From assembly GCA_947500645.1 (NCBI GenBank), contig CANMSD010000002.1:496001-560000 (forward strand): a DNA stretch of 64,000 nt, given 5' to 3'. This DNA is from an uncultured Erythrobacter sp. (GTDB taxonomy: Bacteria > Pseudomonadota > Alphaproteobacteria > Sphingomonadales > Sphingomonadaceae). Under the pieces are notes generated by a model, which did no database searches, was not told the DNA's origin, and worked only from the letters and a program-made list of their open reading frames with translations. Every line of letters starts with the position of its first letter. Position 1 is the first letter of the stretch. The translations under genes and the position numbers were made by a program. Below are positions 40,353 to 58,523 of the stretch, piece by piece.

Positions 40353-41753
40353 ATGAAAAATGTACTCTCAAAATGGGGCAAAAACCGCGTTGCTGTCGCT
40401 TTTTATGCTCTGCTTGCGGTTCTGGTGGTTGGTGGCGGTGCATCTCGTGCTGACGTACAATCTCTTTTGGTTGTGCGGCCGATCGCAGCGATTGTACTAG
40501 CCATCGGCCTGTACTCCCTCACTTGGGACCATGTGAAAAGGCACCTTTGGCTCTTCGGAGTACTGATATCGTTCGCGATCTTGATGGCCCTGCACTTGGT
40601 TCCTCTTCCACCATCGGTATGGACTGCCCTGCCTGGGCGAAGCATCTTGAGCGAGGCAGAAACGCTCGTCGGCATTGAACAGCCATGGCGACCGATTTCG
40701 ATGGTTCCTTGGAGAGGGTGGAATAGTCTGTTCTCGATGCTCATCCCGCTGGCAACGCTGGTGGTCGCTTCGCAGCTCGACGGCAGGCAATTGCAGCGCA
40801 TGTTACCCGTACTACTCGCTTTGATGATCGGCGCCGCCATTCTCGGGCTTTTGCAGATCATCGGCTCTAACAACGGCCCGCTCTACTATTACGATTTGAC
40901 CAATCGCGGTGCCCCCGTGGGAATATTTGCAAACCGCAACCATGCCGCCGTGTTTCTTGCGCTTCTCATTCCTGCTGCGGCGGCCTTCGCTGCGATGCCG
41001 GCAAAATCAGTCGAACAGCTACGCAAGCGCCAATTCACCGCCTTGCTCGCAGCGGCGATTATCGTGCCAGTGATTCTGGTCGCTCGATCAAGGGCCGGCC
41101 TGATTGTAGCAGCGCTGGGCATGCTCTCGGCAGTGTTCATCTATCGTCGACCGAACGTTGAAGTCAAAGCCCGTCGTCGGCGTAATAAAGTGAGCCCAAC
41201 CGTGATAATGGCAGGTGTGATCCTTGGCGTCCTTGGATTGGTCTTCTTTCTGGCAGAGCGCGCAACCACTTTGGCGAAATTCACCGAGGCAGGGGGAATT
41301 GACGAGACCCGCTCGACAATTTGGGCGGTATCTTTCGAGGCGATGCAGAACCAGATCCCGATAGGGTCTGGCTTCGGTTCTTTTGTCGAAGTGTACCAGA
41401 TGTTTGAGCCAGTCGATGCTCTGAATCGATACTATGCGAACCATGCTCACAATGACTACTTGGAACTGGTTCTTGTATCCGGGTTGCCCGGATTGGCTCT
41501 ACTATTGGTCGCTGTCTATTGTCTCGCTAAACGCGGTCTAAAGCTGATACTCACAAGTTTGAAAGACAGAGGTGCTGCCCGCAGCCCCCATCGCCTGCTG
41601 GGGCTCGTAAGTGTCGCCTGGCTTGCGCAACTGGCAATCGCAAGTGCAGTTGACTATCCGTTACGCACGCCGATGCTGGCAGCAATTGCCGTGCTTGCAT
41701 GCGTTTGGTTGACACGGGCAGATCACGATCGTGAACGCACCAAGCAGGGATAG
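40353..41753 (+). CDS. O-antigen ligase family membrane protein
   Basis: Multi-TM; GIFANRNHAAVFLALLIPAA; ETRSTIWAVSFEAMQNQIPIGSGFGSFVEVYQMF...NHAHNDYLELVLVSGLPGL. Confidence 0.88.
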   Translation: MKNVLSKWGKNRVAVAFYALLAVLVVGGGASRADVQSLLVVRPIAAIVLAIGLYSLTWDHVKRHLWLFGVLISFAILMALHLVPLPPSVWTALPGRSILSEAETLVGIEQPWRPISMVPWRGWNSLFSMLIPLATLVVASQLDGRQLQRMLPVLLALMIGAAILGLLQIIGSNNGPLYYYDLTNRGAPVGIFANRNHAAVFLALLIPAAAAFAAMPAKSVEQLRKRQFTALLAAAIIVPVILVARSRAGLIVAALGMLSAVFIYRRPNVEVKARRRRNKVSPTVIMAGVILGVLGLVFFLAERATTLAKFTEAGGIDETRSTIWAVSFEAMQNQIPIGSGFGSFVEVYQMFEPVDALNRYYANHAHNDYLELVLVSGLPGLALLLVAVYCLAKRGLKLILTSLKDRGAARSPHRLLGLVSVAWLAQLAIASAVDYPLRTPMLAAIAVLACVWLTRADHDRERTKQG

Positions 41754-41803
41754 GCCAGCAAATGTTATCTGCGCAAAATGGCACAGTGTTCAAAAGGGTT
41801 GAT

Positions 41804-42553
41804 ATGATTTCAGTTAAGCATCTCTCCTTGCGATTGGCAGTCCTCGCGCTTTCGCCAGCGCTTGCTCTTGGAGCTTGTTCGACGCCCCGCCCTCTAGAAG
41901 GCAATGCGGTAGTTGACGTTGTGGAGGGGACCTCCCTTCCGGCCCCGACAAGAGCTGATATGGGCGGATCGGGCCGAGATTTTGCTCTGGGCCCCTATGA
42001 CAAACTAAGGATCTTCGTCCTGGGCATTGAGGAGTTAGAAGGTTTCGAAGCGCAGATTGATGGCGCCGGACGTATCTCTTTCCCGTTGGCCGGAGACATC
42101 ATCGCTGCTGGCAAAACCCCAGCCGAGCTCGGCTCGGAAATCGAAGATCGCATGCGCGAAAACTTCGTTCGCAACCCACAAGTGTCCGTGAATCTGGAGG
42201 AAACCAACAGTCAGATTGTCTTTGTTTCGGGCGAGGTAAACGAACCAGGTGGGTATCCCGTACCGGGCGACCTAACATTGCTGGGCGCAGTATCGCAGGC
42301 AAAAGGCCTGACAGAGTTTGCCAAGAAAGAGTACGTCGTGGTGTTCCGCACGGTAGACGGGACGGATATGGCTGCGCTGTACGATCTTGAAGCGATCCAG
42401 CTGGGCCTCTACCAAGACCCGACAATATATGCCAATGATCGAGTGGTGGTGAGCACATCTCGTGCCCGCAGGCTATTCCGTGATATCTTGTCAGGTGCAC
42501 CACTGCTGACGACGCCAATCATCGCTGCGGTCACAAGCGGCAATAGCAACTAG
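41804..42553 (+). CDS. polysaccharide biosynthesis/export lipoprotein (Wza-like)
   Basis: Lipobox LALGACS; LGPYDKLRIFVLGIEELEGFEAQIDGAGRISFPLAGDIIAAGKTPAELGSEIEDRM. Confidence 0.92.
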   Translation: MISVKHLSLRLAVLALSPALALGACSTPRPLEGNAVVDVVEGTSLPAPTRADMGGSGRDFALGPYDKLRIFVLGIEELEGFEAQIDGAGRISFPLAGDIIAAGKTPAELGSEIEDRMRENFVRNPQVSVNLEETNSQIVFVSGEVNEPGGYPVPGDLTLLGAVSQAKGLTEFAKKEYVVVFRTVDGTDMAALYDLEAIQLGLYQDPTIYANDRVVVSTSRARRLFRDILSGAPLLTTPIIAAVTSGNSN

Positions 42554-44757
42554 TGAATATTCCTATGAACACGCAACAAGATGGCGCTGCCACCACGCCC
42601 GCCATCGGCGGCACTCGCGCTCTGGGCGTTAATCTCAGTGATCGGCCGGTGTTGCTGCACTATTGGCAGCTTCTTAATCGATACAAATGGTTAATGGCGG
42701 CAATCGTAGCGGCCTCTGTGGCGCTAGCGCTGGTGGCGACATTGCTGATGCGCCCGCAATACACCGCGACATCGCGGATTGAGATCAGTCGCCAGGCTGC
42801 GAATGTGACCAACGTTGAAGGGCTCGAATCCACCGAGGCGGGGATCGACCTTGAGTTTTATCAAACCCAATATGCATTGTTGCGCGCGCGCTCGCTTGCA
42901 GAGCGCGTTGCACGCGAACTCAGGCTTACCAATAGCGAAAGCTTTTTCGAGGCCCATGGCCGGCCCTTTGAGGGTCCCAACGGCGACGCTCCGACCGAGG
43001 TGCAGCAGGGTCAAGGGGAATTGCTTTTGGAGCGTCAACGTGACGCGGTCGATATCCTACTGGAGCACATCGCGATCGCTCCGATCCGTGGCTCGAGTTT
43101 GGTAGACATCAGCTACACCAGTGCTTCGCCGCAACTGTCTGAACGGATCGCCAACAGCTGGTCTCGTCAGTTCATAAGGGCCTCGATGGATCGGCGATTC
43201 GCGTCGACGACCGAAGCACGAGAGTTTCTAAATGAACGGCTGACAGAACTTCGAGCGCGCCTCGAAGATTCTGAGCGCAACTTGGTTACCTATGCCGCGA
43301 ACAAGAACATCGTAAGGCTTAACCCCGCAGAAAGTTCTGATTCCGGATCAGGCTCAGGCCGGACGTTGCTTGCCCAGGACCTCGAATCATTGAACGCGTC
43401 ACTGGCGGAGGCACAAGCAGCCCGCATTGGAGCACAAAGTCGCCTCCAGTCGTTGCAGACTAGTGCCGGTCAACAATCACTCAACAATCAAACGATCTTG
43501 GATTTGCGCAGTCGCCTGGCAGAAAGACGCGCAGAATATTCGCAGCTTCTGGCTCAATTTGAACCCGAGTATCCTCGGGCCCTGGCTCTGGCAGAGCAGA
43601 TTAAGTCACTGGAGAGCGCAATCAATGCTGAAGAAGGACGGGTTCGCTCCACAATTGAAAGCTCTTTCCGGGAAGCCAGCCAGCGCGAGGCAGCGCTACG
43701 CGCCCAGTTGGAGGAACGCAAAGGTGACCTGCAAGTCGAGGAACGCGACCGGATTCAGTACAATATCTTTTCTCGAGAGGTCGATACCAATCGTCAACTC
43801 TATGAGAATTTGCTTCAAAGATTCAAAGAAATTGGTGTTGCGGGCATTGCGGCCAACAACATCGCGATTGTCGATCTTGCGACCTTGCCGGTGGAGCCTT
43901 CGTCTCCACGTCTGCTGATCAATTTGCTACTCGCGGTCATGGTTGGCGCTTTCGCTGCGGGAGGTGTCCTGCTTGTCCTCGATCAACTCGATGAAGGGAT
44001 CCGCGATCCTCAATCTGTCGAAGATCGCCTTGGGATTCCGCTTCTGGGCACCATCGGCGAAGTGGGCGATGAGAATGAGTTCGAGCTCATCCAAGATCGA
44101 AAATCGGAGTTGTCCGAAGCCTATTTCACCGTTCACACAAATCTTGCTTTCGCATCGCCAAACGGCGTGCCCAAGATATTCATGCTCACCAGTACGCGAG
44201 AGAAAGAAGGCAAGACCACGTCTTCCATTTCGCTTGCAACGATTCTCGCGCGATCAAGTGGCAGCACGGTTCTGGTTGATGCCGATATGCGTTCTCCATC
44301 GATTGCCGAGGCCTTTGGGCTTGATAATGAATTCGGGGTAAGCAACATCTTGTCCGGAAGCGAGGAGGTTGGGCGTGCAGTGCAGGAGACCGGTCTTCCA
44401 AACCTATCCTGCGTAGGCACCGGCCCTGTCCCGCCAAGCGCAGCTGAGCTGTTAAGCGGTGATCGAATGGGCGAATTTCTGCGGCAGCTCGCAACGCGCT
44501 TCGATCATGTGGTTATCGACGCACCGCCTCTCTTGGGTCTGGCTGATGCGCCGCTCATCGCCCGCCATGCTGAAGGCGTGGTGTTCGTGGTCGAGTTTGA
44601 TCGAATCCCAGTGCGAGGCGCGCGCTCGGCTATTGAGCGGCTCCAAGCGGCAAACGCACCCATATACGGGGCGATTCTCACTAAGTACGACGCCAAGTCT
44701 GAAGGCTACGGTTATGGTTATGGCTACGGCTACGGCTATGGGAAACAAGATGGCTAA
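42553..44757 (+). CDS. polysaccharide biosynthesis tyrosine autokinase (Wzc/GumC-like)
   Basis: Wzz domain, coiled coil, Walker A (TSTREKEGKTTSSISLA), FDHVVIDAPPLLGLADAPL; C-terminal EGYGYGYGYGYGYGKQDG. GTG start overlaps the wza-like stop. Confidence 0.93.
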   Translation: MNIPMNTQQDGAATTPAIGGTRALGVNLSDRPVLLHYWQLLNRYKWLMAAIVAASVALALVATLLMRPQYTATSRIEISRQAANVTNVEGLESTEAGIDLEFYQTQYALLRARSLAERVARELRLTNSESFFEAHGRPFEGPNGDAPTEVQQGQGELLLERQRDAVDILLEHIAIAPIRGSSLVDISYTSASPQLSERIANSWSRQFIRASMDRRFASTTEAREFLNERLTELRARLEDSERNLVTYAANKNIVRLNPAESSDSGSGSGRTLLAQDLESLNASLAEAQAARIGAQSRLQSLQTSAGQQSLNNQTILDLRSRLAERRAEYSQLLAQFEPEYPRALALAEQIKSLESAINAEEGRVRSTIESSFREASQREAALRAQLEERKGDLQVEERDRIQYNIFSREVDTNRQLYENLLQRFKEIGVAGIAANNIAIVDLATLPVEPSSPRLLINLLLAVMVGAFAAGGVLLVLDQLDEGIRDPQSVEDRLGIPLLGTIGEVGDENEFELIQDRKSELSEAYFTVHTNLAFASPNGVPKIFMLTSTREKEGKTTSSISLATILARSSGSTVLVDADMRSPSIAEAFGLDNEFGVSNILSGSEEVGRAVQETGLPNLSCVGTGPVPPSAAELLSGDRMGEFLRQLATRFDHVVIDAPPLLGLADAPLIARHAEGVVFVVEFDRIPVRGARSAIERLQAANAPIYGAILTKYDAKSEGYGYGYGYGYGYGKQDG
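44704..44739 (+). repeat. (GGYTAY)6 hexanucleotide tandem repeat encoding the Wzc (Gly-Tyr)6 tail
   Basis: ggctac ggttat ggttat ggctac ggctac ggctat. Confidence 0.95.
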
Positions 44758-46006: not shown

Positions 46007-47275
46007 ATGAAAGTCTGGTTGCTTCAGCGCGCGGAACCGACACCGCACGACAATGCCGGTGCCCAAAGGCGCCTCAGAACCGGACTGATGGCAGATTTCT
46101 TCCAAGCCGCCGGCCATGAAGTCATATGGTTCACTTCATCCTTCGATCACTATAACCGTCGCTTGCGCTATGACGAGACAACCACAAAAGAAGTTCGACC
46201 CGGCTATGACATCTGCTATCTGAAAGCGCGCGGGTACAAAAAGAATGCATCAATCGCCAGACTGCTCGATGAAAGAGCGGTGACGACGGAATTTCGGCGA
46301 GTGGCTCCTACCAAACAGCGTCCAGACTTGATCATTTCATCGCTCCCGTCAGTCGGCATGGCGGAAGTTGCCGGTGAGCTTGCGCAAAAATGGGGCGTCC
46401 CGATGATCACAGACGTTCGCGACCTGTGGCCGGATGTCTTCCTGGATCTGCTTCCCTCCTTTGCGAAGCCGTTCGCCATGCCGATGATCTCTTCGATGCG
46501 GCGGGAACTGGGAAAAGTTATCGATGCCAGCTCTGCGGTAATCGCTTCGTCCGACGCGCTGGTTCAATGGGCATTCGCCTATTCGAGCAGGACGAGACGG
46601 TCAGAAGATCGCTCGGTTCGCATGGCATACATGCCGTCAGAAGCACTCACGATTTCACCATCGGAAGAGGCGGAGTTCCAGAAGAAGTTCGCGATAAACC
46701 CCGATGAATTCAATATCCTGTTCGTTGGCACCATTGGCCCAATGATGAATCTAGACCCCGTGTTGCGCGCGGCGGAAATTCTCGCAGCGGAAGGCTTGCC
46801 GTCGCACTTCCGCCTGTGCGGTCATGGTTCTGATCTCGACAGGATCAGCACGGCCGCCAAAGGACTGCCAAATGTCACCTGTCCGGGCTGGGTGTCAGCA
46901 AAGGAGATCAGGTTTCTCCTTGGGCATTCAACCGCTGGCATAATACCGTACAGCGACATTCCCAGTTTCCAGATGAGCATATCGAACAAGTTTGGAGAAT
47001 ATCTCTCCGGTTCGCTTGTGATGCTTGCCAATAAGCGTGAGAGCGCTATGGGCACTCTCGTGACCGAAAATGGCGCAGGAATCGTCTACGATGACGATCC
47101 GGTTGCTCTTGCAAATGCAATCCGACGATTGCATGGCTCGCCAGAGCAGCTGGAGCGCCACCGCCATGGCGCGAAAAAGCTATATGACGAACAATTTCAT
47201 GGGCCGACCGTCTATTCACGCTTCGTGAAAGACATGGAGAATCTGGCTCACAACCATTCAAGCAATTTAAGGTAG
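46007..47275 (+). CDS. glycosyltransferase (GT4-like, WbuB-type)
   Basis: MKVWLLQRAEPTPHDNAGAQRRLRTGLMADFFQAAGHEVIWFTSSFDHY; ITDVRDLWPDVF; FNILFVGTIGPMMNLDPVLRAAEIL. Confidence 0.88.
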   Translation: MKVWLLQRAEPTPHDNAGAQRRLRTGLMADFFQAAGHEVIWFTSSFDHYNRRLRYDETTTKEVRPGYDICYLKARGYKKNASIARLLDERAVTTEFRRVAPTKQRPDLIISSLPSVGMAEVAGELAQKWGVPMITDVRDLWPDVFLDLLPSFAKPFAMPMISSMRRELGKVIDASSAVIASSDALVQWAFAYSSRTRRSEDRSVRMAYMPSEALTISPSEEAEFQKKFAINPDEFNILFVGTIGPMMNLDPVLRAAEILAAEGLPSHFRLCGHGSDLDRISTAAKGLPNVTCPGWVSAKEIRFLLGHSTAGIIPYSDIPSFQMSISNKFGEYLSGSLVMLANKRESAMGTLVTENGAGIVYDDDPVALANAIRRLHGSPEQLERHRHGAKKLYDEQFHGPTVYSRFVKDMENLAHNHSSNLR

Positions 47276-47282
47276 TCGACCA

Positions 47283-48131
47283 ATGCAGTCCCCAATCGAG
47301 TACAAGCCATCGCTCGTCGGTCGAAGCGCGCGTATTGTGCTGCCAGCATTGCATAAAGTGCTTCCGACCAAGCTCTATGGCAAGGTATACGAGCTTGCCT
47401 ACGGCAGTTATAAAAGCTTTCTCTATGCTGCACATGGAGCAAAGACCTTCGCTCGCAAGCCGTTCGTACGCGGTGAAGCCAAGCTGAGAGATAAACTCAG
47501 TTTCCAACTGTTGCCGCACACTATGGGTGGACGCAAAGCGCTTGAAAACGCTTTCGACGTCGTTGCTGAAGTCGAGCGGCGCGGGGTCGACGGCGTGATC
47601 GTGGAATGCGGTGTCGCTGAAGGCGGAACTGCAGCGATGATGGCCCTCACCAACCGCGAGCTGGGCAAGCAAGAACGCGAAAAATGGTTCTTCGATTCCT
47701 ATGAAGGTCTGCCGGAACCAACGGCCGAGGACTACCACGACGGTCGCGCTGGCGAATTTATCCGCCCTCTGCCGGAGGGTTCATGTCTAGGAACCATCGA
47801 ACAGGTCAGCGAACTGTTGTTCGACGACCTGAAATTCGATCGTGAACAGACCCACTTGGTCAAAGGCTGGTTCCAAGACACGGTCCCTGCTCATAAGGAC
47901 AAACTTGGCTCGATCGCTGTTCTTCGACTGGATGGGGACTGGTATGAGTCCACGAAAATTCCGCTCGACAACTTCTACGACAAGATTCCTGAAGGCGGAT
48001 TTGTGATCATTGATGACTATGCGACTTGCTTCGGCTCTCGCAAAGCGGTTGACGAATTTCGTGCGGAACGAGGAATCGTGACTCCACTTCGCGAGGATGG
48101 TCGCGGGGGCGTCTATTTCGAACGAGGGTAA
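47283..48131 (+). CDS. TylF/MycF-type SAM-dependent O-methyltransferase
   Basis: GVIVECGVAEGGTAAMMAL; LRLDGDWYESTKIPLDNFYDKIPEGGFVIIDDYATCFGSRKAVDEFRAE. Confidence 0.85.
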   Translation: MQSPIEYKPSLVGRSARIVLPALHKVLPTKLYGKVYELAYGSYKSFLYAAHGAKTFARKPFVRGEAKLRDKLSFQLLPHTMGGRKALENAFDVVAEVERRGVDGVIVECGVAEGGTAAMMALTNRELGKQEREKWFFDSYEGLPEPTAEDYHDGRAGEFIRPLPEGSCLGTIEQVSELLFDDLKFDREQTHLVKGWFQDTVPAHKDKLGSIAVLRLDGDWYESTKIPLDNFYDKIPEGGFVIIDDYATCFGSRKAVDEFRAERGIVTPLREDGRGGVYFERG

Positions 48132-48786
48132 TCTCATCCCGCACTCGTCCGACATTGAACCAAAACCGATCTACGAAACGGCGAAAAGGCTCGGAGACAT
48201 GCTGCTTTCGAGCTTGTTGATCTTGCTGCTTGCGCCGGTGATTGCGGCGCTGGCTCTTGGCGTGAAAGTTTCTTCTCCCGGCCCAGCGCTCTATCGCGGA
48301 ACTCGTACAGGTCGCCACGGCATCCCGTTTGCAATCCTGAAATTTCGCTCGATGGTCATCGATGCGGATAAAGGTGCTGGAACGACCAGTCGCAATGATG
48401 CGAGAATCTTTCCGTTTGGAGCATTTCTGCGTCGCTACAAGCTCGATGAGCTGCCGCAGCTGTTCAACGTATTGAAGGGCGATATGAGTTTTGTCGGCCC
48501 GCGGCCGGAACTGCCTCGCTATACCGACCAGTATAACGGCGACGAGCTGTGCATTCTGGCCGTGCGGCCAGGTATAACGGATTTGTCATCGCTGCGCTTC
48601 AATGACCTTGGCGCGCTGATCGATGATGAAGACCCGGACAGCAGCTTTGAACGCAATGTGCTGCCCATGAAAAACAAGCTTCGCGTTGAATATGTCAAGC
48701 GTCGCGGCATCCTCCTCGATATACAATTGGTAGCGCAAACCATTCTTGTTGTGATCGCCAAACCATTTCGAAAGTCACGCTCATGA
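48097..48786 (+). CDS. sugar transferase (small monotopic phosphoglycosyl transferase)
   Basis: AKRLGDMLLSSLLILLLAPVIAALALGVKVSSPGPALYRGTRTGRHGIPFAILKFRSM; LDELPQLFNVLKGDMSFVGPRPE. Confidence 0.92.
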   Translation: MVAGASISNEGNLIPHSSDIEPKPIYETAKRLGDMLLSSLLILLLAPVIAALALGVKVSSPGPALYRGTRTGRHGIPFAILKFRSMVIDADKGAGTTSRNDARIFPFGAFLRRYKLDELPQLFNVLKGDMSFVGPRPELPRYTDQYNGDELCILAVRPGITDLSSLRFNDLGALIDDEDPDSSFERNVLPMKNKLRVEYVKRRGILLDIQLVAQTILVVIAKPFRKSRS

Positions 48787-49724
48787 GTAGCAAAGCACAG
48801 ATTGTGATCGGCTGCGAGCAGCTCGGAGGTACGGACTGGGGCGCGATAGACGAAAACGAGATAAAGTCCGCCATTTCCCGCGCATTCGACAATGGTTTGC
48901 GCAGGTTTGATACTGCAGATGTCTATGGCCTGGGCGCGAGCGAAGAGCGGCTCTCGCAAGCTCTGGGATCACGCATCCACGATGCCTTCATTATCAGCAA
49001 GGGAGGCGTCCGCTGGGAGAAAGGCGATGGACGAGCTCGCACCTGGAAGGACAACAGCCCGGCCTACCTAGCTAGCGCGCTGGATGATAGCTTGCGACGC
49101 CTCAACGTCGATGCGATTGATCTGTATTTCATTCATTGGCCGGACAATGTCACGCCGATCGACGAAATGCTGAGTTTTTGCGAGACGGCAAAGACTGCTG
49201 GCAAAATCAAATCCTTTGGACTTTCGAACTTTCCTCGGGAGGCTGTCCACACCGCAGCGCAATCCGGGCTTGGCGCAATGCAGAGCGGTTTGAGCTTGCT
49301 TAGCACAGAAGCCGAACAGCGCCCATTTGTTGAAGCGGGTGTGCTAAGCTTGGCCCGGTATGGTTATGGAGCATTGGCCCAAGGGTTGCTGACCGGAAAA
49401 TATTCGGTGCAAGACAAATTTGGAGCAAATGATCGCCGCCATCGCTTGTCGCACTTTGCGCAGCTTGATCACGCCCACATTCGACAGATTCTCGACACAC
49501 TGAAAGGCTGTGCAGTCAATCATAATAAGACGATGGGGCAAATAGCGGTTCAAGCACTACGCCAATCCGGCTTGCTCGAAAACGTGATCGTTGGCGTCAA
49601 AAGCATTGCCCAGATAGACGATCTGCTGGGCTTGGCAGGATTCGAGTTGAGTCCTGAAGCACTCACGCAGCTGTTTGCCAGCACCGCATGGCAAACTGCC
49701 GCATTGCAGCCGGCGAACGATTGA
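48783..49724 (+). CDS. aldo/keto reductase
   Basis: FDTADVYGLGASEERLSQALG; IDLYFIHWPDNVTPIDEML; ATGA overlap with the preceding gene. Confidence 0.9.
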   Translation: MSSKAQIVIGCEQLGGTDWGAIDENEIKSAISRAFDNGLRRFDTADVYGLGASEERLSQALGSRIHDAFIISKGGVRWEKGDGRARTWKDNSPAYLASALDDSLRRLNVDAIDLYFIHWPDNVTPIDEMLSFCETAKTAGKIKSFGLSNFPREAVHTAAQSGLGAMQSGLSLLSTEAEQRPFVEAGVLSLARYGYGALAQGLLTGKYSVQDKFGANDRRHRLSHFAQLDHAHIRQILDTLKGCAVNHNKTMGQIAVQALRQSGLLENVIVGVKSIAQIDDLLGLAGFELSPEALTQLFASTAWQTAALQPAND

Positions 49725-49780
49725 TTTCTCCCTGTTGCGTGTTAGAGCGCAACCGAAATCGCACTATTAAGAAAAAATCA

Positions 49781-50596
49781 ATGAAACCTAACTCTTCAAG
49801 TCAGGAGCTAGCGGACTTCATTCGACACTCAGTGGTGCGAATGACTTCTTATGGCAAATCCTCCCACGTCGGCTCATGCCTGTCGATCGCTGATATTCTG
49901 GCAGTCCTCTATGGTGATGTGCTGAACGTCGATCCGGATAGGGCGGATTGGGTCGATCGCGACCGTTTCATTCTGTCCAAGGGGCACGCTGGCGCGGCAG
50001 TATATGCCGCTCTCGCGGGGCGCGGCTTCTTCGATGAGAGCCAACTGGACGACCACTACATTAATGGGTCACGCATGTCCGGTCATGTGTCGCACAAGGG
50101 AATTGCCGGCGTTGAGGTATCCACCGGATCGCTTGGCCAAGGTCTCTCACTGGGCGCGGGCATGGCACTAGCATCAAAACTGGATGATCATAAACGGCGT
50201 GTTTTTGTGGTGATGAGCGACGGCGAATGCAACGAAGGCTCCGTTTGGGAGGCGGCGATGTTCGCCGCCCATTTTCGTTTGTCCAAACTTTACGCGGTAA
50301 TCGATTACAACAAATTGCAGTCTATCGCATCTACCGAAGAGACCATGGCGCTAGAGCCATTCGAAGATAAATGGCGCGCATTCGGGTGGGAAGTGCGCCG
50401 TGTCGACGGTCATGATCATGCCGACTTACGTGAGGCAATGTCGGAGCCGGCAGACAAAGATCGCCCGGTTGTGGTGATTTGCGACACTGTGAAAGGCAAA
50501 GGCGTCTCCTTTATGGAGAACGCTGTATTGTGGCACTATCGTGCGCCAAATGATGAAGAGCGTGAGAGCGCCCTCAAAGAGTTGAGCGCATCATGA
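49781..50596 (+). CDS. transketolase, N-terminal (TPP-binding) subunit
   Basis: GHVGSCLSIADILAVLYGDVL-like region; LSKGHAGAAVYAAL; GSLGQGLSLGAGMAL; VVMSDGECNEGSVWEAAMFAAHFRLSKLYAVIDYNK. Confidence 0.92.
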   Translation: MKPNSSSQELADFIRHSVVRMTSYGKSSHVGSCLSIADILAVLYGDVLNVDPDRADWVDRDRFILSKGHAGAAVYAALAGRGFFDESQLDDHYINGSRMSGHVSHKGIAGVEVSTGSLGQGLSLGAGMALASKLDDHKRRVFVVMSDGECNEGSVWEAAMFAAHFRLSKLYAVIDYNKLQSIASTEETMALEPFEDKWRAFGWEVRRVDGHDHADLREAMSEPADKDRPVVVICDTVKGKGVSFMENAVLWHYRAPNDEERESALKELSAS

Positions 50597-51480
50597 GGGA
50601 CAGTTTTGTCGCCACGATTACCGATCAGCTCGATAAGGACGAGCAGGTCCTGCTGCTCACTGGAGATCTGGGCTTCGGGATTTTCAACGATATCAGCGAT
50701 CGGTTTCCTGAGCGTTTCATAAATGTCGGAGTCGCCGAGCAGAATATGATCGGCGTTGGGTCTGGCTTATCGATGATGGGCAAGGCCGTATTTTGTTATT
50801 CGATTGCCAATTTCGTGTTCATGCGGGGCCTCGAACAGTTCCGCAATGGGGCCGTCTACCATGATACAAATGTTACCTTGGTTTGCTCGGGCGGCGGCTT
50901 CACCTATGGGCAGCTTGGGTTCACGCATTTCGCGATTGAAGACTATGGTATTATCTCCGCTCTAGGATCGGTGGACATCTACCACCCTTCAACCAGCGAT
51001 CAGGTGCAAAGAGCGGTTGAGGAATGCGCCAAGTTGCCTGGGCCGAAATATCTGAGACTTGAGAAAAAAGAGCTAGATTTCCCTACGCTCGCGACCTTTG
51101 GTGAGCGCGCCGGCTTAGCCCTGCACCATCAGGGCGAGCAGTATGGCATCATTGCGATCGGCGGACTTCTGGAAGAGGCAATGGCAGCGGCCGAGCAATC
51201 GAACGCGGACGTTGCAGTTTACAGCCTGCCCCGACACCTCGCGCTCGGTGACCCGGAGGTGAAAACTGCTCTTAGTCGCCATTCAAAATTGATTTGTATC
51301 GAAGAACATGTACGGCCAAACAGCGTCGGGCAAAAACTCCAGTCGATGGGGTTCGCGGTCGATCATCTGGCCATCTCTGATACAGGTCCCTCAGTGGTAG
51401 GAGACCAAGCATTTCTCCGTAACCATTACGGACTGACCGTAGACGGGCTTTGCGCAAGCCTGACTCAGCTCGATCTATAA
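50593..51480 (+). CDS. transketolase, C-terminal (pyrimidine-binding) subunit
   Basis: LLTGDLGFGIFNDISDRFPERFINVGVAEQNMIGVGSGLSMMGK; ATGA overlap with the N-terminal subunit. Confidence 0.92.
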   Translation: MRDSFVATITDQLDKDEQVLLLTGDLGFGIFNDISDRFPERFINVGVAEQNMIGVGSGLSMMGKAVFCYSIANFVFMRGLEQFRNGAVYHDTNVTLVCSGGGFTYGQLGFTHFAIEDYGIISALGSVDIYHPSTSDQVQRAVEECAKLPGPKYLRLEKKELDFPTLATFGERAGLALHHQGEQYGIIAIGGLLEEAMAAAEQSNADVAVYSLPRHLALGDPEVKTALSRHSKLICIEEHVRPNSVGQKLQSMGFAVDHLAISDTGPSVVGDQAFLRNHYGLTVDGLCASLTQLDL

Positions 51481-51496
51481 AAATCTAGGAAACAGA

Positions 51497-52435
51497 ATGA
51501 TCACTCTTGTTGGCGCCGGTGCCTGGGGCAAAAATTTGTTCCGCAACCTGCATGAATTGAGTCTTTTGCATTCAGTGGTCGATCCGGCCCCGCAAGCCCG
51601 CGAACTGGCGGAACAGAACGGCGTTCCACATTTTGATGACATTGCTCAGGTTCTAGATAATCCCGAGATCAAAGGCGTGGCCGTTGCCACTTCGGCCCCG
51701 ACCCATTTTGCCGTCTGTATGGCTGCGTTAGATGCCGGCAAAGATGTATTCGTGGAGAAGCCCATCGCGTTGCAACTCAGCGACGCGCAAGCAATGGCCG
51801 AAAAAGCCAACGAAAAGAATGCCATCCTTATGGTTGGTCACCTGCTGCAATACCATCCGTGCTTTGCTGCACTGCGAGACCTAGTTGCCAAAGGCGAGCT
51901 GGGCAATGTTCGCTATGTGCTTTCAACCAGGCTGAACTTTGGTCGCATCCGCAGCAACGAGGACGTCATTTGGAGCTTCTCGCCCCACGACATATCCATG
52001 GTGCTATCCCTCATCGACGCTCCAGTGTCCGATGTCTCATCGCACGGCTTCGACATCCTGCAGGATGGTATCGCAGATATCGGTCACATCACTCTGAATT
52101 TCGCCAATGGTGCGAGCGCAGAGATTCGGTCGTCATGGCTGCATCCCCTGAAGGAGCAGCGCCTCGTCGTCGTTGGCCAAAGCAAGATGGCAGTGTTCGA
52201 TGATCGTCTACCTTGGGAAGAAAAGCTTACGATCTACGATCACCATGTCGCAGAGGGACCCGTGGCAGCCCCCGGCGAGGCGCATGCGGTTGACGTACCT
52301 TTTGGAGAGCCATTGAAACTCGAGCTCCAGCACTTCGCCGATCGGATTGATGATCGGCAGCCACCGATCAGCGATCCCGCCGAGGCGATTGCTGTTCTGA
52401 ATGTTTTGCAGCAAGCAAGCTCACTGGAAGGCTAG
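51497..52435 (+). CDS. Gfo/Idh/MocA family oxidoreductase (candidate WbpB-like UDP-sugar 3-dehydrogenase)
   Basis: [63 protein letters not shown]. Confidence 0.9.
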
Positions 52436-53025
52436 TGACCGTCATGACCAGCTCAGATTACTTCGTCCACGAAACCGCACTTGTCGATGACCAGGTCGAC
52501 ATCGGCAAAGGCACTTCTGTGTGGCACTTTGTCCACTTGCTCTCTGGCACCAAGATCGGAGCGGGATGCTCGATCGGTCAAAACGCGATGGTGGGGCCAA
52601 ATGTTAGCGTCGGAAACGGCTGCAAGATCCAGAACAATGTCTCGATCTACAACGGTGTCGAGGTGGAGGACGACGTCTTTATGGGTCCGTCGATGGTATT
52701 CACCAACGTTCTGACTCCGCGAGCACATATCAATCGCAAGGATGAATTTGCGAAAACGCTTATCCGCAAAGGAGCGACTTTGGGTGCAAATTGCACGATC
52801 GTTTGCGGCAACACCGTTGGTCGTTACGCGATGGTCGGAGCTGGCGCAGTCGTGACCAAAGACGTCCCAGACTACGCGCTGGTCTTGGGTAACCCCGCGA
52901 GACAGGTCGGTTGGGTCAGTGCCGCCGGGGAGCGGTTGAGCGACGACCTAGTTTGCCCGCGAACCGGCGAACGCTACGAATTGGTTGGCGACAAACTGCG
53001 CCCGATCGAAAACGCCGGAGAGTAG
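52435..53025 (+). CDS. left-handed beta-helix N-acetyltransferase (WbpD-like)
   Basis: [98 protein letters not shown]. Confidence 0.92.
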
Positions 53026-53055: not shown

Positions 53056-54159
53056 ATGCATATCGTACAACTCACCTCTGCTCACCCACGCACGGATGCG
53101 CGCGTCTTTCACAAGCAGTGCTGCTCGTTGGCGGAAGCTGGTGCGAAAGTAACATTGGTTGTTGCCGATGGCTTGGGCGATGAGACCAAGAACGGGGTGG
53201 AAATTCGGGACGTAGGCCGAAGTGATGGCAGAGTCGGTCGCATGGCTCTTTCCAGCAAGCGCGTCTATTCGCTCGCGAAGACCCTTGAAGCCGATCTCTA
53301 TCACTTACACGATCCTGAGCTCATTCCGTGGGGCTTGATGCTTTCGCGCAGTAAAGTGCCAGTGGTGTTCGATGCGCATGAAGACTTGCCGGCGCAGATC
53401 GCGACCAAGCATTATCTGCCAAAGCCAGCGCGCAGCATTCTGGCAGGTGTTGCCTCTCTCGGAGAACGACTGGCATTTCCAAAATTCAGCGGGCTAATCG
53501 GAGCGACGCCAGAGATAACTGGGAAACTCCGTTCGCATCATCGCACGACGCAGCTGATTGCCAATTACCCCAAGCGAGACGAATTCGCTCCACCACAGGA
53601 GCGCGATCCCAGATTTGCGCTCTTCGTCGGCAGCATGAGCCGCATCCGCGGTATTGCAGAATTGGCCGACGCTATGCAGCATACCAATGCGAATCATAAG
53701 CTGCATCTGGTTGGGCCAATGGCAAATGATGGGATCGCAGAGAGAGTTGCGAGTTCTGCCGGCAGCGAACGCATCGTCACATTCGGCAGTGTTTCACGCG
53801 AGGCTGTAGCACAGCAAATGCGCGGTGCGGCATGCGGTATTGTGACATTCCTCGAAGCTCCCAATCATCTCAACGCCCAGCCTAACAAATTGTTCGAATA
53901 TATGAGCGCCGGTATCCCGGTCGTTGCCTCGCATTTCCCACTCTGGCGCGAACTGATTGAGGGTGCGAATTGCGGTCTTTGTGTTGATCCCGCGAACCCG
54001 CGCGCCATTGCGGAAGCCATCGATTGGGTCTTCGATAATCCGGAAGAAGCCGCACAGATGGGTCGTCGCGGACGCGCCGCAATCGAAGAGGGTTTGAATT
54101 GGGAAACTCAGGCTGAAGAGCTGCTGGCGTTCTATGGCCGGTTAGGGGCTGAATCATGA
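53056..54159 (+). CDS. glycosyltransferase (GT4-like)
   Basis: MHIVQLTSAHPRTDARVFHKQCCSLAEAGAKVTLVVADG; VVFDAHEDLPAQI; KLFEYMSAGIPVVASHFPLWRELIEGANCGLCVDP. Confidence 0.9.
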   Translation: MHIVQLTSAHPRTDARVFHKQCCSLAEAGAKVTLVVADGLGDETKNGVEIRDVGRSDGRVGRMALSSKRVYSLAKTLEADLYHLHDPELIPWGLMLSRSKVPVVFDAHEDLPAQIATKHYLPKPARSILAGVASLGERLAFPKFSGLIGATPEITGKLRSHHRTTQLIANYPKRDEFAPPQERDPRFALFVGSMSRIRGIAELADAMQHTNANHKLHLVGPMANDGIAERVASSAGSERIVTFGSVSREAVAQQMRGAACGIVTFLEAPNHLNAQPNKLFEYMSAGIPVVASHFPLWRELIEGANCGLCVDPANPRAIAEAIDWVFDNPEEAAQMGRRGRAAIEEGLNWETQAEELLAFYGRLGAES

Positions 54160-55220
54160 AAATCGTTTCTGTAGTCGGTGCCAGGCCGCAATTCATCAAG
54201 GCCGCCGCAGTGTCGCGAGTCTTCTTAGAGTTCAGCGAAATCGACGAGAAAGTGGTCCACACTGGCCAGCATTTCGATGCCGGGATGTCAGACATATTCT
54301 TTGACGAGCTTGGCATACCCGAACCCGCGGCGCGGTTCGACATTTCCGGCGGCACGCATGGGGCGATGACTGGTCGGATGCTCATGGCAATGGACGAGCT
54401 ATTGAGCGAGCACAGGCCGGATCTTGTGCTCGTTTATGGCGACACCAACTCCACGTTAGCCGGTGCTCTATCGGCAGCAAAAATGCATATTCCGGTCGCG
54501 CATGTCGAGGCCGGCCTGCGCAGCTTCAACATGAAGATGCCTGAAGAAATCAATCGCATCCTCACCGACAATATCAGCCGCTACCTTTACTGCCCTACCG
54601 ATCAAGCAGTCACAAACCTGACCGATGAACGCTACGACAACCGTGACTGCGATATCCTGTTAACCGGCGATGTAATGCTGGATGCGATGCAAGGCTTCAG
54701 CCCGTTGGCTAGAAAGCCCGATATCGATCTGCCAAGCAAGTTTGCATTGGCGACGGTGCATCGAGCCGAGAATACCGACGAGCCAGATCGCCTTGCACAA
54801 ATCGTTAGCAGCCTAAACAATGTCCAGCGCGAAACGCTACCGATTGTCATGCCGCTGCACCCACGCACTCGCAATGCCATTGCCAGTTCCAATCTTGACC
54901 TCGAGGTTACCATCATTGATCCGGTAGGTTATCTCGAAATGCTATGGCTGCTCCGCAGCGCAGATCTTGTTCTCACCGATAGCGGCGGATTGCAGAAGGA
55001 AGCCTATTTTTGTGGCAAACCCTGCATAACCCTGCGCGATGAAACGGAGTGGGTCGAGCTTGTGGAGGCTGGTGCAAACTTCCTCACAGGGGCCCAGGGG
55101 TCAGAGATTAGCAAAGCGGCTCAGCTTGCTTTAGAATTGGAATTTGAACCCAATCTTGCTCTATTTGGTGGAGGCAACTGCGCCAAACGGATCGCAGAGC
55201 ACCTGACCAGAGGCCGATGA
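54156..55220 (+). CDS. non-hydrolyzing UDP-N-acetylglucosamine 2-epimerase (WecB/WbpI family)
   Basis: VVGARPQFIKAAAVSR; VHTGQHFDAGMSDIFFDELGIPEPA; VYGDTNSTLAGALSAAKMHIPVAHVEAGLRSFNMKMPEEINRILTDNIS; LTDSGGLQKEAYFCGKPC. Confidence 0.95.
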   Translation: MKIVSVVGARPQFIKAAAVSRVFLEFSEIDEKVVHTGQHFDAGMSDIFFDELGIPEPAARFDISGGTHGAMTGRMLMAMDELLSEHRPDLVLVYGDTNSTLAGALSAAKMHIPVAHVEAGLRSFNMKMPEEINRILTDNISRYLYCPTDQAVTNLTDERYDNRDCDILLTGDVMLDAMQGFSPLARKPDIDLPSKFALATVHRAENTDEPDRLAQIVSSLNNVQRETLPIVMPLHPRTRNAIASSNLDLEVTIIDPVGYLEMLWLLRSADLVLTDSGGLQKEAYFCGKPCITLRDETEWVELVEAGANFLTGAQGSEISKAAQLALELEFEPNLALFGGGNCAKRIAEHLTRGR

Positions 55221-56593
55221 TGGATGCCATTCGCACTGCAGGGCGCCCGCCAAAACTGGCAATAAGAGACACTGACAGTTTCGCCAAGCTCGTCATAAGG
55301 CTGGCTTGTGCAGGCCTCCTCTTTCTCAGCCTCTCGATAATCTACACTGATTATGTGTCTGTGCTTTTCGCTTACTATGGCTTTCAGTACATTTTTGAGC
55401 CCGCTCGCCTGCCATTGGCGATTGGCGCGATCCTTGTTTTGACAGCCTTTGTCGCTCCTAGGATTGGCGACGTGAATGCGCTGCTTGTGACCCTGTGCCA
55501 CTTTTTCTTTTTGATCCCAACGGCCGTGATGTTCGTCTATGGCGGGCTATATAGCTCGATCTTCTTATGGACGGTCGTCATTTTGCTTGCGCTGATCGGG
55601 TTATCGCGCACTGATATTAGCATAAATTTCCGCGCATCGATCAGCCTGACAGCTCTGGAATTGTGTCTGTTCGCCTTGGCGCTTGCCGGCTTGGCGCTGG
55701 CAATATCGAGCGTGGGCCTCTTCTCCCTAAGCTTCAACATCTTCGAAGTGTATGATCAACGGGCGCTCGCGAACGAAGCGGATCTGGGTATCTTCGGATA
55801 TATTCAGCAATTAGGCGTACAGGCGTCTCTACTGCTTATCGCCGTGGCTTTCTTCAATCGCCAATACGCAATGGCAGTCGGCGGGTTCGCTATTGCAATT
55901 CTGTTTTTTGCCTACACCGGGCACAAGAGCTTCCTCTTTTGGTCGCTCTTTCTCGTCGCGTTCATCTATCTCGGACGCCTGAAAAACAAATTTTCGATAT
56001 TTGTCATCTCAGCCACAGTGTTCACATGGATCATGGTTCTGATCATGGACACATCGATTGGTTCGGACCTCAATAGCTTTTTGACTCGCCGCACACTTTT
56101 CACTCCCGTGCTGTTGAATCAATATTACATCATGTTCGCCGACCAGTTCGGCTTTCTCAGCTGGAGTTATTCGAAGGTTGGGCTGGGCTTTTTCGAATAT
56201 ACCGACACGGTTTCGCCGACGCAGGCCGTCGGTCACTATTTGACGGGCAGTGACACCAATTCAGCCAACACCGGGATGATAGGTTTCGGTTTCATCAATG
56301 CTGGTCATTTTGGTGTGGCAGCATATCTTATCACGTTCTTTGGAATCATGCTGCTAGGGGGCGGTGTGGCCAAAGCAAAAGGGATCGAACTGCTGGGTGC
56401 AGCAATCATGATCCGTGCAGCTTACTCCGCGGTGACAACTTCAGACTTGCCCGCGATCTTTCTATCTGGGGGCCTGGGTTATGCGCTTATACTTCTGTTG
56501 GTTTATCCAAGCGTCACTGCAACTGCTCCTTCCAAGAAGGGTTCGCTCGCTGCTACGCCTGACAACCGATTACCGATACGCTCCCCTGCGTAA
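55217..56593 (+). CDS. multi-TM oligosaccharide repeat-unit polymerase-like protein (Wzy candidate)
   Basis: About 10-12 hydrophobic segments; position inside the locus; low sequence recognisability is typical for Wzy. Confidence 0.7.
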   Translation: MMDAIRTAGRPPKLAIRDTDSFAKLVIRLACAGLLFLSLSIIYTDYVSVLFAYYGFQYIFEPARLPLAIGAILVLTAFVAPRIGDVNALLVTLCHFFFLIPTAVMFVYGGLYSSIFLWTVVILLALIGLSRTDISINFRASISLTALELCLFALALAGLALAISSVGLFSLSFNIFEVYDQRALANEADLGIFGYIQQLGVQASLLLIAVAFFNRQYAMAVGGFAIAILFFAYTGHKSFLFWSLFLVAFIYLGRLKNKFSIFVISATVFTWIMVLIMDTSIGSDLNSFLTRRTLFTPVLLNQYYIMFADQFGFLSWSYSKVGLGFFEYTDTVSPTQAVGHYLTGSDTNSANTGMIGFGFINAGHFGVAAYLITFFGIMLLGGGVAKAKGIELLGAAIMIRAAYSAVTTSDLPAIFLSGGLGYALILLLVYPSVTATAPSKKGSLAATPDNRLPIRSPA

Positions 56594-56615: not shown

Positions 56616-58523
56616 ATGTGCGGAATATTCGCTCGGTTCTCGAGGGCAGCCGAGAGTACGACCAATCTTGCCGAGATTTCTCAACGATTGGCACATCGTG
56701 GGCCAGATGCAGAGGGCGCCGTCACCTGGTTCGGCGATGAGAAACCGCAGGTAGTTGAGGACTTTGGCAAACCTTGCGCCGGGCATGTCTTACTTCACCG
56801 GCGATTGGCGATCATCGATTTAGACCACCATGCCGATCAGCCGTTCGTATCCGCTGACGGTCGCCATTGGCTCATTTTCAACGGTGAGATTTACAATTAT
56901 CGCGAGCTTCGCAGCGAGATCGAGGCTGAAGGCGTTACTTTCCGCACATCCAGCGATACTGAAGTTCTACTCGCAGCCTGGCGTCTTTGGGGACCAGACT
57001 GCCTATCCAGGCTTGAAGGAATGTTTGCCTTCGTCATCTTCGACCGACGGCAAAACAAAGCCGTGGCTGCAAGAGATCCGTTTGGGATCAAACCTCTGTT
57101 CTTCAAGGTCTCACATAGTGAGATTCTTTTGTCTTCCGAGTTGTCACCAATCACCTTCCACGACTCGCCTGACAAGCTTGAAGCCAAGAGCGCAGCGCAA
57201 GCAATCCGTTGGGGAATGAACGATGGCCATGGGGCGAGCCTGATACCAGGAGTGCGAAGGCTTTCGCCGGGAACATATTGCATGATCGACCTCAATGGCC
57301 AGGCAAGCATGGCCGACCCAGTGAGATACTGTGATCTCCAAACGGTCCAACAGGAAGACTGGGATTATGGTGAAGCCACGCAAAAGCTCCGGGAGACATT
57401 CTTGGGCTCCGTTGACCGTCATCTGCGGTCGGACGCCTCACTTGGATTTGCGCTTTCCGGAGGAATAGATTCTAGCGCGATTGTGTGCGCCGCACATGAG
57501 CTGGGACGAGAAGGGATCAAGACATTCTCGTACGTGCCGCAGGATGAACGTATTTCCGAGCGCAAATGGATTGACATCGTCGCGCGGCACGTTGGGGCAG
57601 AAACGCACTTCATCCAACCGCAACGCAGCGATGTGGCGGCGAAACTTGCGGAAGTGATACGGTCTCAAGGCGAACCATTCGCAAGCCTCAGTATCTATGC
57701 TCAGTACGAGCTGTATGCCGAAGTGGCCCGGCAGGACGTGAAAGTCCTATTGAGCGGGCAAGGAGCCGACGAATTGCTTGCCGGCTATATCTCATATTAC
57801 CAGGCAGCAGCGTTTCAGGACATCGCGAAAGGCCGTCTCAAGACTGGGATATCGAGGTTGCACAGCCTCGACGCCCACTTTGGCGTAGGCTGGAAATCTT
57901 CACTGCTCTGGATGCTACGCCTCAGCCTTCCTCAAAAATTGCGAAATCAAATGGCGAGAGTAAATTTCGCCAGCCGTGCTCCATGGGCCGACACTCATGC
58001 GATGGCAGAGAACGGGATGAGGAATTGGGCGGAATTGCGGCCGCGATCAGCTGCCAATTCGTCGGTGAGTGGAATGCTGCGAGATTCAATCGAGAACTCT
58101 CTAGTGGCGCTGTTGCGTTATGATGATCGTAACTCGATGGCGCATTCCGTTGAGAGCCGCGTACCTTTTCTGACGCTGGACATGGCTCGCTTGTGCCTTT
58201 CTTTCCCTGATTCATTCCTGATCGACGATGCTGGCGTCACCAAACGGATCTTCAGGGACGCGATGAGAGGAATCGTGCCCGAAGAAATCCTGCAACGCCA
58301 AGACAAGCTCGGCTTCACCCCCGACAATTCGAACTGGCGGGATGCACTGGGCAGCTTCATTCCTAGCGGAGAGGGTAAACGTGTCGCGGGCCTCGTCTTT
58401 CCCAAAGAACTGAGCGAGGCCCTTCAATCAGAAGACAATGGCGGAAGAGAAGACATCACCTTCGCCTGGAGATCACTCAACCTTTGCGCATTGGAAACGC
58501 TCTACACCGAGACGCTCAATTGA
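56616..58523 (+). CDS. asnB: glutamine-hydrolysing asparagine synthase family protein (AsnB-type amidotransferase)
   Basis: MCGIFARFSR (Cys2 nucleophile), HRGPDAEGAV, FNGEIYNYRELRSEIEAEG, FALSGGIDSSAIVCAA, LLSGQGADELLAGY. Confidence 0.93.
   Translation: MCGIFARFSRAAESTTNLAEISQRLAHRGPDAEGAVTWFGDEKPQVVEDFGKPCAGHVLLHRRLAIIDLDHHADQPFVSADGRHWLIFNGEIYNYRELRSEIEAEGVTFRTSSDTEVLLAAWRLWGPDCLSRLEGMFAFVIFDRRQNKAVAARDPFGIKPLFFKVSHSEILLSSELSPITFHDSPDKLEAKSAAQAIRWGMNDGHGASLIPGVRRLSPGTYCMIDLNGQASMADPVRYCDLQTVQQEDWDYGEATQKLRETFLGSVDRHLRSDASLGFALSGGIDSSAIVCAAHELGREGIKTFSYVPQDERISERKWIDIVARHVGAETHFIQPQRSDVAAKLAEVIRSQGEPFASLSIYAQYELYAEVARQDVKVLLSGQGADELLAGYISYYQAAAFQDIAKGRLKTGISRLHSLDAHFGVGWKSSLLWMLRLSLPQKLRNQMARVNFASRAPWADTHAMAENGMRNWAELRPRSAANSSVSGMLRDSIENSLVALLRYDDRNSMAHSVESRVPFLTLDMARLCLSFPDSFLIDDAGVTKRIFRDAMRGIVPEEILQRQDKLGFTPDNSNWRDALGSFIPSGEGKRVAGLVFPKELSEALQSEDNGGREDITFAWRSLNLCALETLYTETLN

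Follow-up and report, generated by a model that had tools for sequence, protein, structure and literature searches.

Branched sugars of bacterial lipopolysaccharide (LPS) are attributed to YerE-like enzymes (PMC12247030). In the biosynthesis of the antibiotics miharamycin and amipurimycin, transketolases encoded by split genes have been proposed to add a hydroxyacetyl group to a keto sugar, and a 2025 review counts 13 further split-transketolase candidates (Krug et al.), all from Streptomyces and none characterised in vitro (PMC12247030). According to the same review, no transketolase has been characterised for ketone acceptance and there is no structure of one that accepts ketones (PMC12247030). 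Here we describe an aldo/keto reductase (AKR) gene followed by genes for the two halves of a transketolase, TktN and TktC (together TktNC), which lie in a surface-polysaccharide locus of an uncultured Erythrobacter sp. (assembly GCA_947500645.1). The window analysed is a stretch of 64,000 nucleotides (contig CANMSD010000002.1, positions 496,001 to 560,000). Sequence comparisons led us to propose, at a probability of about 0.5, that TktNC acts on a nucleotide-activated 4-keto sugar, to which it adds a ketol unit.

An intact, accessory split transketolase

An earlier note on this DNA, made from the letters alone, had reported the AKR and the two transketolase halves, with the halves coupled by an ATGA overlap and with the thiamine diphosphate (ThDP) motif and the catalytic AEQN intact. 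Pfam matches, structure matches and open reading frame (ORF) coordinates bore this out (Table 1), the overlap lies at 50593-50596, and alignment showed the motif SDGECNEG...N and AEQN to be intact. The alignment also showed that histidines H26, H66, H100, H261 and H473, the ThDP/Mg motif and the catalytic glutamate are all kept. The N domain is encoded by one gene and the pyrimidine-binding and C-terminal domains by the adjacent gene, and as judged from sequence both proteins clearly belong to the transketolase fold. The AKR belongs to family PF00248 and carries the D/Y/K/H catalytic tetrad. Another ATGA overlap (48783-48786) couples the initiating phosphoglycosyltransferase (PGT) gene to the AKR gene. 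The longest TktN ORF opens at 49688, which gives an apparent overlap with AKR; conservation with Altererythrobacter xiamenensis places the real start at ~49781, where both proteins begin with MKPNS. Because this common start follows the AKR stop, the two genes do not overlap, and the apparent overlap is an artefact of an early ATG.

The locus is syntenic with one in A. xiamenensis, where the shared genes run CapD, Wza, Wzc, TylF, PGT, AKR, TktN, TktC, Gfo/Idh and NAT (a hexapeptide acyltransferase), and then a glycosyltransferase, 2-epimerase, AsnB, Wzx, UDP-sugar dehydrogenase, DegT and a pectate-lyase-like gene. Among ten genes compared, TktN (79%) and TylF (77%) were the best conserved. Ratios of pN/pS against the A. 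xiamenensis orthologues were 0.20 for TktN, 0.28 for TktC and 0.43 for AKR, which indicates purifying selection on all three. Pseudogenes or chance ORFs were rejected on the basis of the intact motifs, the synteny and these ratios.

A separate full-length transketolase is encoded elsewhere in the genome (G000:C1:181787-182752, a 680 aa frame scoring 450 bits to PF00456). A housekeeping role for TktNC was therefore rejected, and the objection raised in advance by the earlier note, that the pair might be the only transketolase of the genome, does not apply; unlike a classical pentose-phosphate transketolase, TktNC is not the cell's sole or main transketolase. A close TktC was found in 0/36 same-genus genomes of the relatives sample (G020 gave only a 28% match), and the order sample held a single other same-genus genome with a close match (G201, 68% identity). 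Since it is near-absent from same-genus genomes, the TktN-TktC pair is an accessory trait.

Relatives of the pair and their gene neighbourhoods

Approximately 65 TktNC loci were gathered from Pseudomonadota and other phyla, including plasmid matches, and a tree was built on joined TktN and TktC with ultrafast bootstrap (UFBoot) support. The window falls within an 11-member clade (UFBoot 100), itself inside a 15-member clade (UFBoot 99). A wider grouping of 25 members was weakly supported (UFBoot 46), and a 33-member clade that includes a radical-SAM group reached UFBoot 100. RfbF (glucose-1-phosphate cytidylyltransferase) and RfbG (CDP-glucose 4,6-dehydratase) were carried by all four extra members of the 15-member clade and by most of the next grouping, sometimes with RfbH. 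The three proteins passed NCBIfam cut-offs in L048, L094 and L101, and RfbF/RfbG were recognised by similarity in L047-L051, L094-L096, L101, L104, L120, L122, L123, L163 and L164. A 4,6-dehydratase, either RfbG or CapD, was present in the locus in 18/25 clade members versus 0/17 members of two other family groups (Fisher 2e-6, which ignores shared ancestry and is indicative only). The TktNC-linked 4,6-dehydratases comprise CDP-, UDP- and GDP-sugar types.

Gene order links TktNC to nucleotide keto sugar enzymes and ketoreductases, whether RfbFG or CapD with an AKR or a short-chain dehydrogenase/reductase (SDR), or an SDR fused to TktN itself. In Methylovirgula sp. HY1 the order is rfbF-rfbG-SDR-rfbH-tktN-tktC. 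In Paenibacillus cellulosilyticus, rfbF, rfbG and a C-methyltransferase gene precede a gene in which an NDP-sugar SDR and TktN are naturally fused (L171:5097-7004, on a plasmid); TktC, as a gene of its own, and a TylF methyltransferase gene come next. Within the window's own clade, PGT adjoins TktNC in most members (window, L003, L069, L092, L093, L121, L156, L157) and CapD lies within 2-5 kb of it in L093, L156 and L157; the order is DegT-TktN-TktC-PGT-CapD in L156 and L157, and AKR/PGT-TktN-TktC...CapD in L093.

Other parts of the tree have other neighbours. In the branch of L052-L059 and L061 no such sugar-nucleotide partners were seen beside TktNC, and the radical-SAM branch (L004, L097, L098, L100, L103, L105, L107, L110) was without 4,6-dehydratases. 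In several loci, TktNC pairs of other branches stand near radical-SAM/B12 proteins, methyltransferases and SDRs (L097, L098, L100, L103-L108, L110, L170). The distant branch L005 has GmhA, HddA and HddC/GmhB-type genes as neighbours, and in Azospirillum (L111) and L162 TktNC has HddA-like kinases nearby, which suggests a heptose-related variant in L005, L111 and L162. TktNC is accompanied by both GDP-mannose-dehydratase-like and heptose genes in L005 and L162. Polysaccharide loci of G1163 and G1192 (L163, L164) each hold two different TktNC pairs ~12-14 kb apart, one of them beside RfbF-RfbG-RfbH. Two Streptomyces plasmid matches carry no annotation.

The linked reductase and the active site

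The AKRs adjacent to TktNC (window, L003, L093) form a clade of their own with UFBoot 100, joined by that of Azospirillum L111 with UFBoot 95. This clade is separate from the unlinked AKR paralogues of the window genome and of the L093 genome; both AKRs of L162 also fall outside it. Loci that lack an AKR have another enzyme in the neighbouring place, namely an SDR in L121, the RfbFG loci and the Paenibacillus fusion, and a DegT aminotransferase in L092, L156 and L157. All three kinds of partner, AKR, SDR and DegT, would be explained if they reduce or aminate a branch ketone. In the paulomycin pathway, reduction of an acetyl branch at C4 of a sugar is the proven activity of an AKR, Pau7 (PMC4753412).

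In alignment, E. coli TktA residues S385, H461, D469 and R520 correspond to G, G, L and K in the window, so that the phosphate-site residues S385, H461 and R520 of classical pentose-phosphate transketolases and the neighbouring D469 are all replaced. The sister clade has G at 461, a non-acidic residue at 469 and mostly K at 520. In the E. coli enzyme S385 contacts the substrate phosphate, and the changes S385Y/D469T/R520Q shifted the range of acceptors away from phosphorylated aldehydes and towards bulky ones without phosphate (PMC5073344).

Proposed reaction and the choice of acceptor

We infer the following pathway from these linkages. TktN and TktC would form a single ThDP-dependent transketolase that accepts a nucleotide-activated keto sugar rather than a sugar phosphate. 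A two-carbon ketol unit, taken from a ketose, would be added to the C4 ketone of the CapD product. The result would be a tertiary alcohol that bears a hydroxyacetyl branch. Reduction of the branch ketone by the AKR would then yield a 4-C-(1,2-dihydroxyethyl) sugar, and the upstream, coupled PGT probably attaches this sugar to undecaprenyl phosphate, where it would start the repeat unit. The earlier suggestion of a two-carbon branch on a nucleotide sugar, subsequently reduced by the AKR, is thus supported in part, by the dehydratase linkage, the SDR-TktN fusion, the AKR clade, the phosphate-site changes and the Pau7 precedent. The accompanying suggestion that the branched sugar is O-methylated by TylF finds weak support in the co-occurrence of TylF-type genes with TktNC (window, L003, L111, L156, L162, L171).

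Enzymes of the CapD family produce UDP-4-keto-6-deoxy-HexNAc. RfbG was found in 47/401 genomes of the order and within 2 kb of TktC in five (G083, G251, G283, G303, G369), which represent two genera and are not independent. The window genome has RfbF/RfbG, at another locus on C1. RfbG was found nowhere in A. xiamenensis, which has the same TktNC locus; CDP-4-keto-6-deoxyglucose is therefore unlikely as the window acceptor and the CapD product is favoured. CapD was present in 7/7 checked clade genomes without adjacent RfbFG and absent from G449, which has adjacent RfbFG. Because CapD is common, this pattern is supportive only. We are less certain of a UDP sugar as the specific acceptor than of the general reaction.

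Several points weigh against the proposed reaction. The window CapD lies 11.7 kb from TktC, whereas the Gfo/Idh gene starts 17 bp downstream; the TktNC of L091, L119 and L092 is without a dehydratase in its vicinity, and the neighbourhood counts come from related, non-independent loci. The changes H461S and D469L also occur in the L052-L059 group, which has no sugar-nucleotide genes, so the pocket changes alone are no proof of a nucleotide-sugar acceptor. Moreover, the loss of phosphate contacts should weaken the binding of a phosphorylated ketose donor too. The AKR may be a 4-ketoreductase instead, and as far as our searches of the literature reached, there was no assayed enzyme of the TktNC clade.

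Each of the alternatives has points in its favour. That the pair supplies an ordinary or, as the earlier note had also considered, an unusual sugar phosphate (e.g., sedoheptulose-7-P or erythrose-4-P) for a nucleotide-sugar pathway would suit L005 with its heptose genes and the HddA-like kinases of Azospirillum and L162. We consider it unlikely for the window, given that the housekeeping transketolase already makes such intermediates, the classical phosphate-binding residues are changed, and the SDR-TktN fusion and RfbFG linkage fit a nucleotide-sugar acceptor better. Heptose supply by the window locus was rejected, as no relative of GmhA, HddA, HddC or GmhB was identified there. The 17-bp spacing between TktC and Gfo/Idh, together with the same direct succession in A. 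xiamenensis, raises a different acceptor, the C3 ketone of UDP-3-keto-GlcNAcA made by Gfo/Idh, from which TktNC would form a 3-C-branched uronic acid. Amipurimycin has a comparable C3 branch, and G558 has Gfo/Idh, NAT and DegT genes ~15 kb from TktNC. However, the other clade members (L156, L157, L092, L121 and L069 among them) do not have Gfo/Idh close to TktNC, the sister clade is paired with C4-keto enzymes, and the Gfo/Idh already belongs to a complete ManNAc3NAcA-type set with NAT, DegT, UDP-sugar dehydrogenase and 2-epimerase, which together make this acceptor unlikely.

A plain C4-ketoreductase role for the AKR, converting the CapD product to a QuiNAc/FucNAc-type sugar while TktNC has some other cellular substrate, would account for the coupling of AKR to the initiating PGT and for the lack of another obvious C4-ketoreductase for the CapD product in the locus. 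It does not agree well with the clustering of TktNC-linked AKRs in one clade or with the replacement of AKR by SDR or DegT beside TktNC, and we regard it as improbable. Transketolase-like enzymes make glycolyl-ACP (acyl carrier protein) in some antibiotic pathways, and with a hexapeptide acyltransferase nearby TktNC might produce the glycolyl groups with which a sugar is N- or O-glycolylated. This appears highly improbable, as the locus proteins covered by the Pfam scans included neither a lipoyl/E2 domain nor an acyl carrier protein.

The surrounding polysaccharide locus

By sequence, the cluster around the three genes is a Wzx/Wzy-type polysaccharide locus (Table 1). A complete ManNAc3NAcA-type gene set is present (UDP-sugar 6-dehydrogenase, Gfo/Idh, DegT, NAT and 2-epimerase). 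The predicted UDP-ManNAc3NAcA pathway does not require AKR, TktN or TktC, as the earlier note stated. Beyond this set the locus holds CapD, the initiating PGT, TylF and an AsnB-like amidotransferase (56616-58523), which perhaps amidates a uronic acid of the polymer. A 514-aa ORF without a Pfam match (44459-46003) separates Wzc from the glycosyltransferase; its A. xiamenensis equivalent has 416 aa and is likewise without a match. The locus ends with a pectate-lyase-like beta-helix protein (62561-63982, minus strand; 43% in A. xiamenensis), possibly a polysaccharide lyase for the locus polymer. A second polysaccharide locus of the same genome (G000:C1:739000-766000; L132, L133) has RfbF, RfbG, a DegT/RfbH-like enzyme, an SDR, Wza and another CapD, and no TktNC.

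Table 1. Genes of the AKR-TktN-TktC module and the surrounding locus, in window coordinates.
Feature	Position	Strand	Evidence
CapD/WbpM-like UDP-HexNAc 4,6-dehydratase, proposed 4-keto sugar supplier	38330..40273	+	PF02719 3e-116; 61% in A. xiamenensis locus
Wzy_C/O-antigen ligase-like membrane protein	40353..41753	+	PF04932
Wza-like exporter	41762..42553	+	PF02563, SLBB
Wzc-like co-polymerase/tyrosine kinase	42553..44757	+	PF02706, PF13807
Glycosyltransferase family 4	46007..47275	+	PF13692/PF00534
TylF-type O-methyltransferase	47283..48131	+	PF05711 3e-48
Initiating phosphoglycosyltransferase (Bac_transf, PGT)	48097..48786	+	PF02397 9e-52
Aldo/keto reductase (AKR), proposed side-chain ketoreductase	48783..49724	+	PF00248 2e-47; tetrad D43/Y48/K73/H118
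TktN, ThDP-binding half of split transketolase	49781..50596	+	PF00456 3e-45; structure match 6yak 3e-75
TktC, pyrimidine-binding and C-terminal half	50593..51480	+	PF02779 9e-20, PF02780 5e-6; structure match 6yaj 1e-28
Gfo/Idh/MocA oxidoreductase, WbpB-like; would make UDP-3-keto-GlcNAcA	51497..52435	+	PF01408
Hexapeptide acyltransferase, WbpD-like (NAT)	52435..53025	+	PF00132
Glycosyltransferase family 4	53056..54159	+	PF00534
UDP-HexNAc 2-epimerase, WecB/WbpI-like	54156..55220	+	PF02350; TIGR00236 above cut-off
Possible Wzy-type polymerase	55217..56593	+	no Pfam match; context and syntenic A. xiamenensis ORF
AsnB-like glutamine amidotransferase	56616..58523	+	TIGR01536 above cut-off
Wzx-like flippase, weak match	58484..59806	+	PF13440 9.6e-4, below cut-off
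UDP-sugar 6-dehydrogenase, WbpA-like	59847..61172	-	TIGR03026 above cut-off
DegT aminotransferase, WbpE-like	61191..62312	-	PF01041 3e-103

Comparison with known branching systems

Taken more broadly, and somewhat more tentatively than the reaction itself, we suggest that this widespread and hitherto unrecognised split-transketolase clade serves to branch the sugars of bacterial surface polysaccharides with C2-ketol units, as a counterpart to YerE with a different chemistry. It would accept CDP-, UDP- and possibly GDP-4-keto-6-deoxy sugars, with AKR, SDR or DegT reducing or aminating the branch to give a family of sugars of the 4-C-(1,2-dihydroxyethyl) type. If this is true, bacteria would have a second general enzymatic means of making branched surface sugars, and the clade would serve as a genomic marker for predicting such sugars in polysaccharides. 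It would also make the question of whether transketolases accept ketones testable in non-pathogenic bacteria that are easy to work with, and provide candidate biocatalysts for hydroxylated tertiary alcohols.

In the open-access literature we found no paper linking a transketolase with such polysaccharide loci. The earlier description of the pathway as undescribed holds for surface polysaccharides in the literature searched; it does not hold for the chemistry, as hydroxyacetyl transfer by a split transketolase was already proposed for miharamycin and amipurimycin (PMC12247030). By analogy, branching by TktNC may be considered a variant of that scheme, which is itself unproven in vitro. Compared by description only, the Streptomyces systems share the two-gene transketolase and the proposed hydroxyacetyl transfer to a keto sugar, but they belong to antibiotic clusters, whereas the present clade is found in surface-polysaccharide loci of Pseudomonadota and others, with CDP/UDP 4-keto-sugar genes.

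The closest solved structure for both halves is the split transketolase of Carboxydothermus hydrogenoformans (6yaj/6yak), which keeps the classical residues around H461/D469 (ATHAGLTVGEDGASH), where the window has CSGGGFTYGQLGFTH. Pau7 reduces the ketone of a two-carbon branch at C4 (PMC4753412), as is proposed for the window AKR. Pau7 is an AKR5I enzyme with an acetyl branch as substrate, whereas the window AKR is nearest to IolS/GSP69-type AKRs and would act on a hydroxyacetyl branch. EvdU5/EvdS3, the eurekanate branch enzyme of avilamycin and everninomicin, is likewise a two-subunit ThDP enzyme with proposed two-carbon branching of a UDP-4-keto sugar, but it is of the pyruvate-dehydrogenase type, with an acetyl donor and a pentose acceptor.

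YerE, along with ErwE and MMAR_2332, carries out ThDP-dependent branching of CDP-4-keto-3,6-dideoxyglucose in LPS, in the yersiniose A pathway. The Methylovirgula gene order resembles this pathway, except that it has a transketolase instead of YerE. YerE is a single-chain flavoprotein of the acetolactate-synthase type that uses pyruvate, whereas TktNC has its transketolase domains on two chains and presumably uses a ketol donor.

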